Made by a program: the position numbers and the translations under genes. From NCBI RefSeq assembly GCF_007556605.1, contig NZ_VJND01000001.1, positions 124,001-188,000 of the forward strand: a stretch of 64,000 bases of DNA. Reading direction: 5' to 3'. This DNA comes from Tepidimonas sediminis (lineage in GTDB: Bacteria; Pseudomonadota; Gammaproteobacteria; Burkholderiales; Burkholderiaceae_C). Shown here piece after piece: positions 45,121 through 48,861 of this stretch (positions are counted from its first letter, which is position 1; every line of letters starts with the position of its first letter). The notes under the pieces are model-generated. The model had not been told where the DNA came from, ran no database searches, and worked only from the letters and a program-made list of their open reading frames with translations.

Positions 45121-48100
45121 ATGGATCATGAACGCATGCCTGAATCGCTGGCCGGCGGCCCGGCGCTGCCGCCGCTGGAGCACGACGCGCAGCTGGCCGC
45201 GCTGCGCGTGCCGCCGCATTCGCTGGAGGCCGAATCGAGCGTGCTGGGCGGCCTGCTGCTGGACAACGCCGCCTGGGACCGGGTAGCCGACCTGCTCACC
45301 GAAAGCGACTTCTACCGCCCCGAGCACCGGCAGATCTTCGCCGCCATCGACGCGCTGATCGGCGCCGGCAAGCCGGCCGACGTCGTCACCGTGCACGAGC
45401 ACCTGAGCTCGCTGGGCCGGGCCGAGGACGTGGGCGGGCTGGCCTACCTGAACCAGCTGGCGCAGTTCGTGCCCAGCGCCGCCAACATCCGCCGCTACGC
45501 CGAGATCGTGCGCGAGCGCGCCATCCTGCGCAAGCTGATCGCCGCCAGCGACGAGATCGCCGCACAGGCCTTCGCTCCGCGCGGCAAGCCCGTGGCCACC
45601 ATTCTCGACGAGGCCGAGCAGAAGATCCTGTCGATCGGCGAGGAAGGCAGCCGCATGAAGCAGGGCTTCCAGTCGATGGACAAGCTGGTGGTGGAGCTGC
45701 TCGACCGCGTGCAGGAGATGGCCGACAACCCCAACGACATCACCGGGGTGCCCACCGGCTTCATCGACCTGGACCGCATGACCGCCGGCCTGCAGCCGGG
45801 CGACCTGATCATCATCGCCGCGCGCCCGAGCATGGGCAAGGCCCAGCCGCTGGACGCCCGCGTGCGCACCCTCACGGGCTGGAAGCGCATGGGCGAGCTG
45901 CGCGTCGGCGACGCGCTGGCCTCGGTCGACGGGCGCCCGTCGATCGTCACCGGCATCTACCCGCAGGGGCGGCGCGCGCTGTACCGCGTCACGCTGTCGG
46001 ACGGGCGCAGCACCGAGTGCTGTGCCGAGCACCTGTGGCAGGTGCACTGCCGCCACTGGAACGGGCCGCGCGTGCTCAGCACCGTGGAGCTCATGGTACT
46101 GCTCGGCAAGGCGCGCCACCGCAACCGCGTCTGGATCGAGCCGCACAGCGGCGAGTTCGGCCACCACGAGCCGCTGCCGATCGATCCGTGGGTGCTGGGA
46201 GCGCTGCTGGGCGTCGGCAACCTGACCGGCAGCGGGACGGTGCGCTTGGCCACCGCCTCGGACGAGATGCTGCAGCGTCTGGCCGAGCGGCTGGGTGGGG
46301 AACTTGCGCTCAGTTCGGCCTCGGCGGTCGATCACCGCATCGTGCGCCGCGGCGGCGCGCACGCGGCCGGGCGCGCCGGGCTGCTGCCGAACCCGCTGCG
46401 TCAGGCGCTGGATGCGCTCGGTCTGACCGGCGTGTCGAGCGAACACAAGTTCATTCCTCGCCTGTACCTCGAGGCATCCCGGGCGGCGCGTCTGGACCTG
46501 CTGCGCGGTCTGCTGGACACCGACGGCTGGGTCGAGCGCTGGGGCAGCATCCGCTTCGCGACCGCCAGCCCCCAGCTGGCGCAGGACGTGGCCGAGCTGG
46601 TGCGCTCGCTGGGGGGCTGGTGCCGCGTGCACGTCCGCACGACGACATTCCGCGACGCGCGCGGGCAGGTCCGCACGGGCCGCCCGGCCCACGTGCTCGA
46701 CATCGCCCACCCGCAGCCCGACCAGTTGCTGCTGCTGTCGGACAAGCAGGCGCGGCTGCAACCCCGGCGGATGCGCCAGAAACGGCTCAACATCGTCGCC
46801 ATCGAGCCGACCCGCGAGGCCGAGTGCCAGTGCATCGCCGTCAGCCACCCCTCGCGCCTCTACATCACCGACGGCGACATCGTCACCCACAACACCGCGT
46901 TTGCGATCAACATCGCCGAGCACGTGGCGCTGCACGAGGGGCTGCCGGTGGCGGTGTTCTCGATGGAGATGGGCGCGGCGCAGCTGGCGGTGCGGGTGGT
47001 CGGCTCGATCGGGCGCATCAACCAGAGCCACCTGCGCACCGGCAAGCTCACGCCCGACGAGTGGCCGCGCCTGACCGAGGCGATCGAGAAGCTGCGCCAC
47101 GTCTCGCTGTTCATCGACGAGACGCCGGGGCTGACGCCGGCCGAACTGCGCGCCAACGCGCGCCGGCTGGCGCGCCAGTGCGGCAAGCTCGGGCTGATCG
47201 TGGTCGACTACCTGCAGCTGATGAACGGCTCCGGCTCCGGCGAGGAGAACCGCGCCACCGAGCTGGGCGAGATCTCGCGCGGCCTCAAGATGCTGGCCAA
47301 GGAGCTGCAGTGCCCGGTGATCGCGCTGTCGCAGCTCAACCGCGGCGTGGAGCAGCGCACCGACAAGCGGCCGATGATGTCGGATCTGCGCGAGTGCGTG
47401 ACCGGCGATACCCTCGTGTGCCTGACCGATGGACGGCGCGTGCCGATCGAGCGGCTGGTCGGCACGCGGCCCGAGGTCTGGGCGGTCGATGCGCACCAGC
47501 GGCTGGTGGCCGCGCAGGCCGCGCAGGTCTGGGCGGCGGGCGTGCGTCCCGTGTGGCGGCTGCGGCTGCGCAGCGGGCGCTGCTTGCAGGCAACCGCCGA
47601 GCACCGCGTGCTCAGTGGCAGCGGCTGGGTGACGCTCGGCCAGCTGCGCCGCGGCGACCGCGTGGCGCTGGCGCGCCGCCTTCCGGCTCCCGCCGCCGCG
47701 GGAGCGTGGGACGAGGACCGGCTGGCCTTGCTGGGCCACCTGGTCGGCGACGGCAGTTACCTGAAGGGCCAGCCACTGCGCTACACCACCGCCAGCGAGG
47801 ACAACGCCGCCGTGGTCGAGCGTGCCGCGCGCGCGCTGGGCAGCACCGTGACGCGCCACCGCGGGCGGGGGCGCTGGTTCCAGCTTCTCATTGCCGGCAA
47901 CGGCCACCGCTGGCAGCCGCGGGGCGTCAACGCCTGGCTGCGGTCGCTGGGCATCTTCGACCAGCGCTCGCACGAGAAGCGCCTGCCCGAGGAGGTCTTC
48001 GCGCTGGACGACGCGAGCCTGGCCACGCTGCTGCGGCACCTGTGGGCCACCGACGGCTCGATCCACGTGCGCGCGCCGGGGCGGCGCGGTCCTGCCCGGG

Positions 48101-48861
48101 TGTACTTCTCCACCGCCAGCGCAGCCCTGGCGGCGGACGTTGCAGCCCTGTTGCTGCGGCTGGGCATCGTCGCCCGGCTGCGCGCGCCGAAGGCGCAGGG
48201 GCGCGTCTGGACGGTGGAGGTCTCCGGCAGCGAGGCGCAACGCCGCTTTCTCGATCGCGTCGGTGCCTTCGGCCCGCGGGTCGCGCAGGCCGAGGCGCTG
48301 CGCGCCTGGCTGGACCGGCCCGAAGCCGAGGTCGGTGCCAACGTCGACACCCTGCCGCGGCAGGTGTTCGAGCGCGTGCGGCGGCTGATGCGCGAGCGGG
48401 GTCTCAGTCAGCGCGCCCTGGCGGCCCTGCGCGGTACCGCCTACGGGGGCAACGCCCACTGGCGCTTCGCGCCGTCGCGCGCGCTGCTGGCCGACTACGC
48501 CGAGCGGCTCGACGACGCCACGCTGCGCGACTGGGCAAACTCCGACCTGTTCTGGGACGTGGTGGAGGCGGTGGAGCCGCTCGGCGAGCAGCCGGTCTAC
48601 GACCTGACGGTACCGGGGCCGGCGTCCTGGCTGGCCGATGGCATCGTCAGCCACAATTCGGGCGCGATCGAGCAGGACGCCGACATCATCATGTTCATCT
48701 ACCGCGACGAGTACTACACCAAGGAACAGTGCAAGGAGCCGGGCGTGGCCGAGATCATCATCGGCAAGCAGCGCAACGGCCCCACCGGCACCGTCAAGCT
48801 GGCGTTCCTGAGCGCGCTGACGCGCTTCGAGAATCTGGCTGGTTACGACAGCGGGTACTGA
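45121..48861 (+). CDS. dnaB: Replicative DNA helicase DnaB containing two inteins
   Basis: DnaB unwinds the replication fork. The 1246-codon frame holds three DnaB extein pieces: residues 1-240, 592-758 and 1180-1246, together 474 residues, a normal DnaB length. The N-terminal primase-interacting domain starts near PPHSLEAESSVLGGLLLDNAAWDR. The Walker A is split between RPSMGK (before intein 1) and TAFAINIAEH (after it). GLIVVDYLQLMNG is Walker B, and RPMMSDLRE is split from SGAIEQDADIIMFIYRDEYY. Both insertion points are known intein sites in helicases. Without splicing the P-loop is broken, so both inteins must be active for viability if this is the only dnaB. The start is ATG at 45121. Confidence 0.97.
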   Translation: MDHERMPESLAGGPALPPLEHDAQLAALRVPPHSLEAESSVLGGLLLDNAAWDRVADLLTESDFYRPEHRQIFAAIDALIGAGKPADVVTVHEHLSSLGRAEDVGGLAYLNQLAQFVPSAANIRRYAEIVRERAILRKLIAASDEIAAQAFAPRGKPVATILDEAEQKILSIGEEGSRMKQGFQSMDKLVVELLDRVQEMADNPNDITGVPTGFIDLDRMTAGLQPGDLIIIAARPSMGKAQPLDARVRTLTGWKRMGELRVGDALASVDGRPSIVTGIYPQGRRALYRVTLSDGRSTECCAEHLWQVHCRHWNGPRVLSTVELMVLLGKARHRNRVWIEPHSGEFGHHEPLPIDPWVLGALLGVGNLTGSGTVRLATASDEMLQRLAERLGGELALSSASAVDHRIVRRGGAHAAGRAGLLPNPLRQALDALGLTGVSSEHKFIPRLYLEASRAARLDLLRGLLDTDGWVERWGSIRFATASPQLAQDVAELVRSLGGWCRVHVRTTTFRDARGQVRTGRPAHVLDIAHPQPDQLLLLSDKQARLQPRRMRQKRLNIVAIEPTREAECQCIAVSHPSRLYITDGDIVTHNTAFAINIAEHVALHEGLPVAVFSMEMGAAQLAVRVVGSIGRINQSHLRTGKLTPDEWPRLTEAIEKLRHVSLFIDETPGLTPAELRANARRLARQCGKLGLIVVDYLQLMNGSGSGEENRATELGEISRGLKMLAKELQCPVIALSQLNRGVEQRTDKRPMMSDLRECVTGDTLVCLTDGRRVPIERLVGTRPEVWAVDAHQRLVAAQAAQVWAAGVRPVWRLRLRSGRCLQATAEHRVLSGSGWVTLGQLRRGDRVALARRLPAPAAAGAWDEDRLALLGHLVGDGSYLKGQPLRYTTASEDNAAVVERAARALGSTVTRHRGRGRWFQLLIAGNGHRWQPRGVNAWLRSLGIFDQRSHEKRLPEEVFALDDASLATLLRHLWATDGSIHVRAPGRRGPARVYFSTASAALAADVAALLLRLGIVARLRAPKAQGRVWTVEVSGSEAQRRFLDRVGAFGPRVAQAEALRAWLDRPEAEVGANVDTLPRQVFERVRRLMRERGLSQRALAALRGTAYGGNAHWRFAPSRALLADYAERLDDATLRDWANSDLFWDVVEAVEPLGEQPVYDLTVPGPASWLADGIVSHNSGAIEQDADIIMFIYRDEYYTKEQCKEPGVAEIIIGKQRNGPTGTVKLAFLSALTRFENLAGYDSGY
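45841..46893 (+). other. Intein 1 in DnaB (Walker A site, class 3 type)
   Basis: A 351-residue insertion between GK and T of the P-loop. It begins with Ala rather than Cys or Ser and ends with THN before Thr+1. Block B reads CAEHLW with His64 and Trp66, the F block has ECQCIAV with Cys331 (or Cys329) as nucleophile, and the first extein residue is Thr. This Trp/Cys/Thr set is the signature of class 3 inteins, which start splicing from an internal Cys. A LAGLIDADG homing endonuclease lies inside. Its first motif is LGALLGVGN, with Val125 where the catalytic Asp is expected, while the second, LLRGLLDTDG, is intact. The nuclease is therefore probably dead. Confidence 0.88.
47395..48657 (+). other. 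Intein 2 in DnaB (DLRE/SG site, class 1 type)
   Basis: A 421-residue insertion after SDLRE. It begins with Cys1 (CVTGDTLVCLTDG, block A), has TAEHR in block B with the TxxH His, and ends GIVSHN before Ser+1 (SGAIEQD). This is the standard class 1 arrangement. The LAGLIDADG endonuclease has both acidic motifs, LLGHLVGDGSYL and LLRHLWATDGSIHV, and an additional DNA-recognition-like part (RERGLSQRALAALRG, about residues 325-365), so it could still be an active homing enzyme. It is read in frame with the exteins. Confidence 0.92.

Follow-up and report, generated by a model that had tools for sequence, protein, structure and literature searches.

Two inteins with class 3 and class 1 signatures and separate histories in the dnaB gene of Tepidimonas sediminis

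The dnaB locus and its two inteins

The gene for the replicative helicase DnaB of Tepidimonas sediminis lies within a stretch of 64,000 nucleotides (GCF_007556605.1, contig NZ_VJND01000001.1, positions 124,001 to 188,000), which we analysed as a whole and call the window. It occupies window:45121-48861 (+) as one uninterrupted reading frame of 1246 amino acids (aa) with no internal stops, and two inteins break up its helicase sequence. Our analysis makes it likely that this precursor combines an older class 3 intein (intein 1), which has lost a catalytic aspartate of its endonuclease, with a class 1 intein (intein 2) that came later, the two having separate histories. Intein 1 splits the P-loop between Lys and Thr at MGK/T (the slash marks the insertion point); the site of intein 2 is DLRE/SG. 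Joining the three extein pieces (240 + 167 + 67 aa) gives a DnaB of 474 aa, which in the aligned part shares 92-96% identity with the intein-free DnaBs of six congeners. The open frame and the joined exteins thus bear out an initial annotation, made from the window's letters alone, that had proposed one frame with two inteins in dnaB and a 474-residue product. The parts of the gene and the residues of intein 1 discussed below are as follows.

45121-48861, forward strand: dnaB precursor coding sequence, 1246 aa plus stop; TIGR00665, 547 bits
45121-45840, forward strand: N-extein, DnaB residues 1-240, C-terminal ...ARPSMGK (P-loop), 240 aa
45841-46893, forward strand: intein 1, class 3 by signature, with LAGLIDADG endonuclease domain, 351 aa
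46021-46023, forward strand: Cys61 of intein 1, in block B where TxxH has Thr; Cys in 78/80 relatives, Thr in 2
46036-46038, forward strand: Trp66 of intein 1, block B:12, the W of the WCT triplet, from the alignment of relatives
46213-46215, forward strand: Val125 of intein 1, LAGLIDADG motif 1, endonuclease lesion; catalytic Asp in 78/80 relatives
46522-46524, forward strand: Asp228 of intein 1, LAGLIDADG motif 2, retained; Gly in T. fonticaldi
46831-46833, forward strand: Cys331 of intein 1, block F:4, predicted nucleophile, the C of WCT; 80/80 relatives
46885-46887, forward strand: Thr349 of intein 1, block G:5, the T of WCT; 80/80 relatives
46894-47394, forward strand: middle extein, Thr+1 of the P-loop first, DLRE last, 167 aa
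47395-48657, forward strand: intein 2, class 1 by signature, LAGLIDADG endonuclease with D119 and D220, 421 aa
48658-48861, forward strand: C-extein, Ser+1 first, 67 aa plus stop

Pfam models recognised the DnaB N domain and, split over three stretches, DnaB_C; both inserts matched LAGLIDADG_3, and intein 2 also matched Intein_splicing. Among NCBIfam models TIGR00665 matched DnaB and TIGR01445 and TIGR01443 matched within intein 2. The G+C fraction is 0.73 in intein 1 and 0.75 in intein 2, and 0.70, 0.70 and 0.62 in the successive extein pieces, against 0.72 for the window. A 1296-aa open frame antisense to dnaB (window:44998-48888, reverse strand) was taken to be an artefact of the GC-rich sequence.

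A second, intein-free dnaB, which the initial annotation had named as a point that would tell against it, was not found: a search of the host genome (2.53 Mb, 35 contigs, completeness 100, contamination 0.05) with PF03796 returned only the three pieces of the window gene. One extra match below the cut-off was rejected as a second dnaB since it is RadA (TIGR00416, 584.8 bits). An assembly artefact, a doubt that the initial annotation had itself raised, is an unlikely source of the frame given the 420-kb contig, the completeness and contamination values above, and homologues in other assemblies that share the intein boundaries; we therefore rejected a chimera or frame artefact.

Splicing signatures and endonuclease state

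Class 3 inteins are described as lacking the N-terminal nucleophile and carrying Trp at B:12, Cys at F:4 and Thr at G:5 (PMC3196547). Intein 1 begins with Ala1, which is not Ser, Thr or Cys, and carries His64, Trp66, Cys331, Thr349, His350 and Asn351, followed by Thr+1. We examined conservation in the best 80 of 190 relatives of intein 1 from named genomes, each with DnaB sequence flanking it on at least one side. One of the two search patterns used to collect these relatives fixes Cys61, His64 and Trp66, and in the other position 228 may be either Asp or Gly; figures for these positions therefore lean upward. Cys331 and Thr349 lie outside both patterns. Position 1 is Ala in 78/80 relatives and MGK directly precedes the intein in 78/80, the remaining two being unreadable in each case. 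Each residue of the WCT triplet (W66, C331, T349) is present in 80/80, and Cys331, Thr349, His350, Asn351 and Thr+1 are all invariant; Trp66 and His64 (80/80 each) and Cys61 (78/80) owe their conservation partly to selection of the sample, as they lie within a single pattern.

An AlphaFold2 model of intein 1 (mean predicted local distance difference test score, pLDDT, 93.5) retrieved PI-SceI as the top Foldseek hit, with the class 3 DnaB inteins 6bs8 and 6rix, and also 6riy, lower down. Sequence matches in the PDB numbered five, namely the DnaB inteins 6rix, 6bs8 and 6riy and the gp41-1 inteins 6riz and 6qaz, the last two of which we take to be class 1. By sequence and fold, intein 1 is assigned to class 3, and the signature residues together with the MGK/T site uphold the class 3 intein in the P-loop that had been claimed. 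PF14890 matched only inside intein 2 in the host genome and did not match intein 1. The intein 1 protein, the only query with which further class 3 inteins were sought there, found a single match.

Intein 2 carries Cys1, a block B of T67-A-E-H70, a terminal H420-N421 and Ser+1, and in addition Asp403. Its AlphaFold2 model (mean pLDDT 86.3) retrieved TliVMA, PI-PfuI and the Ssp and Npu DnaB inteins by Foldseek. The last two (1mi8, 4o1r) match part of the intein 2 splicing domain at 1.1 Å over 96-98 columns with 35-37% identity, although, unlike intein 2, their solved forms of 141-142 residues are too short for an endonuclease domain. The replicative-helicase model NF005852 includes an intein stretch with which intein 2 lines up in position (398-826, 379.6 bits), so that DLRE/SG probably corresponds to the DNA-binding-loop site a. 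Signature and site agree with the class 1 intein claimed at DLRE/SG, and by signature intein 2 is a class 1 intein.

These assignments suggest how the precursor would mature. The 1246-aa chain would have to lose both inteins to yield the 474-aa DnaB. In intein 1, Cys331 (F:4) would attack the Lys240-Ala1 bond by the class 3 route, after which the N-extein would move to Thr+1 and Asn351 would cyclise; intein 2 would follow the class 1 route through Cys1, Ser+1 and Asn421. Persistence of both inteins in an essential gene may reflect that they splice well enough. We infer these points (splicing and its chemistry, adequate splicing as the basis of persistence), like the loss of cutting and the order of arrival considered below, from the sequences.

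The two inteins differ in the state of their endonucleases. Active LAGLIDADG sites are expected to have Asp at the ends of both motif helices. In the model of intein 1 the helices 116-125 and 214-228 are predicted to end at residues 125 and 228; the catalytic Asp of motif 1 (GALLGVGN) is replaced by Val125 (GTC), and Asp228 of motif 2 is retained. Intein 2 has both residues, D119 and D220, as judged from the motifs, and both Asp are present in 11/11 intein 2 sequences (the window and 10 homologues). Among the intein 1 relatives, 76/80 have both, the exceptions being T. fonticaldi (L063, D228G), L097 (D228G), L112 (D125E) and L130, where a deletion leaves 299 aa. The intein 1 of T. fonticaldi (L051:3554-4606), whose protein is 94% identical to that of the window, thus retains Asp125 and has Gly228 (GGC), so sister copies have lost different endonuclease Asps while the splicing residues of intein 1 are kept. 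Between the window and T. fonticaldi the ratio of nonsynonymous to synonymous substitution rates (dN/dS) in the endonuclease region is 0.13, and the Asp losses therefore look recent, with selection probably acting until recently. Such losses would be expected to abolish cutting by intein 1.

Two side observations concern this domain. The 299-aa Giesbergeria intein 1 (L130:3501-4397) has a deletion that removes part of motif 1 and is possibly on its way to a mini-intein. Between the window and T. fonticaldi (genome G010), synonymous differences number 40/160 sites in the endonuclease part against 12/120 in the splicing parts of intein 1 (Fisher p 0.002).

Distribution and separate histories

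The survey of dnaB in relatives that the initial annotation had suggested covered 11 Tepidimonas genomes, 9 of them with a dnaB match (the less complete G001 and G003 gave none). Both inteins occur only in the window genome among these nine. T. fonticaldi AT-A2 (G010), of the same genus, has intein 1 alone and G009 has intein 2 alone, and neither is found in G002, G004, G005, G006, G007 and G008 (the G005 gene ends with its contig, past both sites). Even G008 and G009, with dnaB genes 96% identical, differ in that only G009 carries intein 2. Because congeners thus carry either intein alone or neither, intein 1 and intein 2 have separate histories, in line with the independent acquisition for which the initial annotation had seen a natural test in this pair.

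Beyond the genus, we sampled 397 genomes of the family, each at least 90% complete, and found intein 1 in 20, intein 2 in 5 and both in 2, the index genome being one of these. Of 399 genomes sampled from the order, 21 had intein 1 and 15 had intein 2, with some weak matches among these counts, and 4 had both, again counting the index. These samples overlap in part, and their figures include matches not individually confirmed inside dnaB. Nine of the 80 named intein 1 loci have both inteins, L109 stopping before the second site. Judged by contig coordinates, which identify G651 with L120, there are 11 distinct double carriers besides the window, namely those nine loci, G505 and G768, the intein 1 match of the last covering positions 1-288 only. 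They include two metagenome-assembled genomes (MAGs) labelled Rokuibacteriota (L104 and L115).

Divergence among the Tepidimonas genomes suggests the order of arrival. On the RadA tree the nearest genome to that of the window is G002, which has no intein (synonymous divergence, dS, 0.148), followed by G010 (dS 0.195). In intein 1 the window and G010 differ by a dS of 0.213, near this RadA value, which together with the neighbouring positions on the RadA tree fits inheritance of intein 1 within the clade, with loss or replacement in G002. For intein 2 the dS between the window and G009 is 1.02, against host values of 0.427 (dnaB extein) and 0.436 (RadA), which points to separate entries of intein 2 into the two lineages. 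Intein 1 has therefore probably resided in this Tepidimonas clade for longer, and intein 2, absent from the two nearest RadA relatives, is probably the later arrival. With one endonuclease short of an Asp and the other intact in its motifs, the two seem to stand at different stages of the homing cycle.

Several points weigh against this reading. A LAGLIDADG enzyme that has lost one Asp may still nick DNA, and D125V is a single-base change (GAC to GTC) for which a sequencing error is possible. The dnaB extein tree pairs G010 with G004 (support 0.979) rather than with the window genome, and this conflict with RadA, together with an extein dS of 0.304 between the window and G010, means that intein 1 could have been transferred between lineages. 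Upstream of the intein 1 site, moreover, the window and G010 show a stretch of low divergence, chosen after seeing the data (5/210 against 129/1152 positions). At 21-29 bases from the site, however, there are five differences where G004 differs as well, which argue against a simple co-conversion tract; we rejected the stretch as proof of co-conversion, since its choice was post hoc and it does not reach the site.

As an alternative to inheritance, the window lineage and T. fonticaldi may have exchanged intein 1 recently. DNA identity between the two is 92.9% in intein 1 and 88.5% in the dnaB extein, and the hosts are not paired on the dnaB tree. Against this stand the agreement of intein 1 dS (0.213) with RadA dS (0.195) and the neighbouring places of the two hosts on the RadA tree, and we regard such an exchange as possible but on balance unlikely.

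Two other dnaB genes are irregular. In the double carrier L115 a stretch of the middle extein is missing (L115:4545-4956), with a length at this point that three does not divide, indicating a decaying gene or an assembly error. The frame of L058 (G089) ceases to resemble DnaB near extein residue 436, continues to 750 aa and looks frameshifted near its end.

Known intein pairs, a splicing brake and joint mobility

The pairing of a class 3 with a class 1 intein in DnaB is not new: its precedent is the DnaB of Mycobacterium smegmatis (Kelley et al. 2018; PMC6195587). In that protein DnaBi1, of class 3, sits at site b in the P-loop, and DnaBi2, of class 1, at site a in the H4 loop. The two cases share the protein, the class pairing and the insertion of the first intein in the P-loop after Lys. 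They differ in that DnaBi1 is a mini-intein without endonuclease, has Ser+1, has Asp at the Thr place of block B and uses Cys48 as redox partner, whereas intein 1 of the window has an endonuclease domain short of one Asp, Thr+1, Cys61 and no equivalent of Cys48. The class 3 inteins of Mycobacteriophage Bethlehem DnaB and Deinococcus radiodurans Snf2 likewise have Trp B:12, Cys F:4 and Thr G:5 and no N-terminal nucleophile; these were tested by splicing (PMC3196547), whereas intein 1 is assigned by sequence and fold. A literature search with most of the subscription literature outside its coverage found no class 3 and class 1 DnaB pair outside mycobacteria, and a search on inteins and Tepidimonas returned a microbiome review only. 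The Tepidimonas host presumably belongs to a different phylum from M. smegmatis. What is new here is the set of congeners with each intein alone, both or neither, the parallel Asp losses, and the absence of the Cys48 equivalent with the zinc ligands kept.

The last of these bears on whether the pair might act as a two-input brake on replication, with oxidants, metals or heat stalling splicing and so pausing DnaB assembly. The class 3 intein of M. smegmatis splices slowly, and hydrogen peroxide inhibits it reversibly, the catalytic Cys118 pairing with Cys48 upon oxidation; its class 1 neighbour splices fast and is not inhibited by the same stressors (PMC6195587); zinc also inhibits DnaBi1, bound by Cys118, Val119 and Tyr128 (PMC7360933). 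In favour of such a brake, the columns of the zinc ligands are kept in intein 1 (Cys331-Ile332-Tyr341 for C118/V119/Y128, in 80/80 relatives), and Cys60 and Cys61 lie within block B. Cys61, usual among the relatives, is invariant in a nine-sequence alignment whose other rows were drawn from searches of whole genomes, and may be a thiol partner of the nucleophile Cys331. The place aligned with the redox partner Cys48, however, is Leu47 in the window and was Cys in 0/80 relatives, so that, on the alignment, the mycobacterial redox brake in its published form is not conserved in intein 1. Moreover, close relatives carry neither intein, which means that no such brake is needed in the genus, and we consider this explanation improbable. 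With the redox partner not conserved and the zinc ligands kept, these data bear on how far the DnaB splicing brake of mycobacteria extends to class 3 inteins in general.

A fuller account would make intein 1 a long-standing class 3 intein that lives on splicing alone, its endonuclease disarmed twice in parallel in neighbouring species through different catalytic Asps. Its splicing would perhaps be gated by a Cys61/Cys331 thiol pair, unlike the mycobacterial one, and the zinc site, beside a fresh and still homing intein 2. This account is doubtful as a whole.

The haloarchaeal MCM proteins offer a parallel for the mobility of such pairs. There too a replicative helicase holds two inteins, one right after the Walker A Lys and one at the DNA channel, with singles, doubles and empties among relatives, although the host protein is an archaeal MCM and both endonucleases are active; the two inteins interfere in homing, the double allele rarely homes into empty genes, and the question was raised whether one endonuclease may degenerate beside another (PMC10643990). 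Applied to Tepidimonas, gene conversion driven by the active endonuclease of intein 2 would carry both inteins and leave that of intein 1 free to decay. The sites are 501 bp apart and the endonuclease motifs are intact in intein 2 and not in intein 1. In the order sample without the index genome, doubles make up 3/20 intein 1 carriers against 11/378 others (p 0.028), or 3/15 against 7/383 (Fisher p 0.004) with a score cut set after seeing the scores, which retained 15/20 non-index intein 1 and 10/14 non-index intein 2 matches. The family sample without the index, however, gave 1/19 against 3/377 (p 0.18), and endonuclease lesions were found in 1/9 double against 3/71 single carriers (p 0.39; 2/10 with the window included, p 0.11). 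The carriers are phylogenetically non-independent and their matches not all confirmed in dnaB, and the results on joint travel of the inteins are mixed. As T. fonticaldi lost an intein 1 endonuclease Asp without intein 2, which suggests that decay needs no neighbour, and the MCM double allele seldom homes into empty genes, we judge this explanation very unlikely. With separate histories as the preferred reading, the genus offers natural comparisons (each intein alone, both, neither, and two neighbouring intein 1 copies short of different Asps) in which the cycle of intein gain, decay and loss, and the degeneration question raised for MCM, become testable within one small genus.

Related sequences also occur outside bacterial dnaB genes. 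Inserts of this kind are present on viral contigs, where 15/66 intein 1 loci are flanked on both sides by DnaB-like sequence, some being near-duplicates, and 3/53 intein 2 loci on one or both sides. In most of the viral contigs L155-L206, intein 1-like inserts follow GK (GK/A ... THN/T or S) in proteins without detected DnaB similarity, so that this intein type seems to target P-loops in more than one phage ATPase. In one genome of the family, a distant intein 1-like match (G405:C12:88545-89435) lies elsewhere, in addition to the full-length one.

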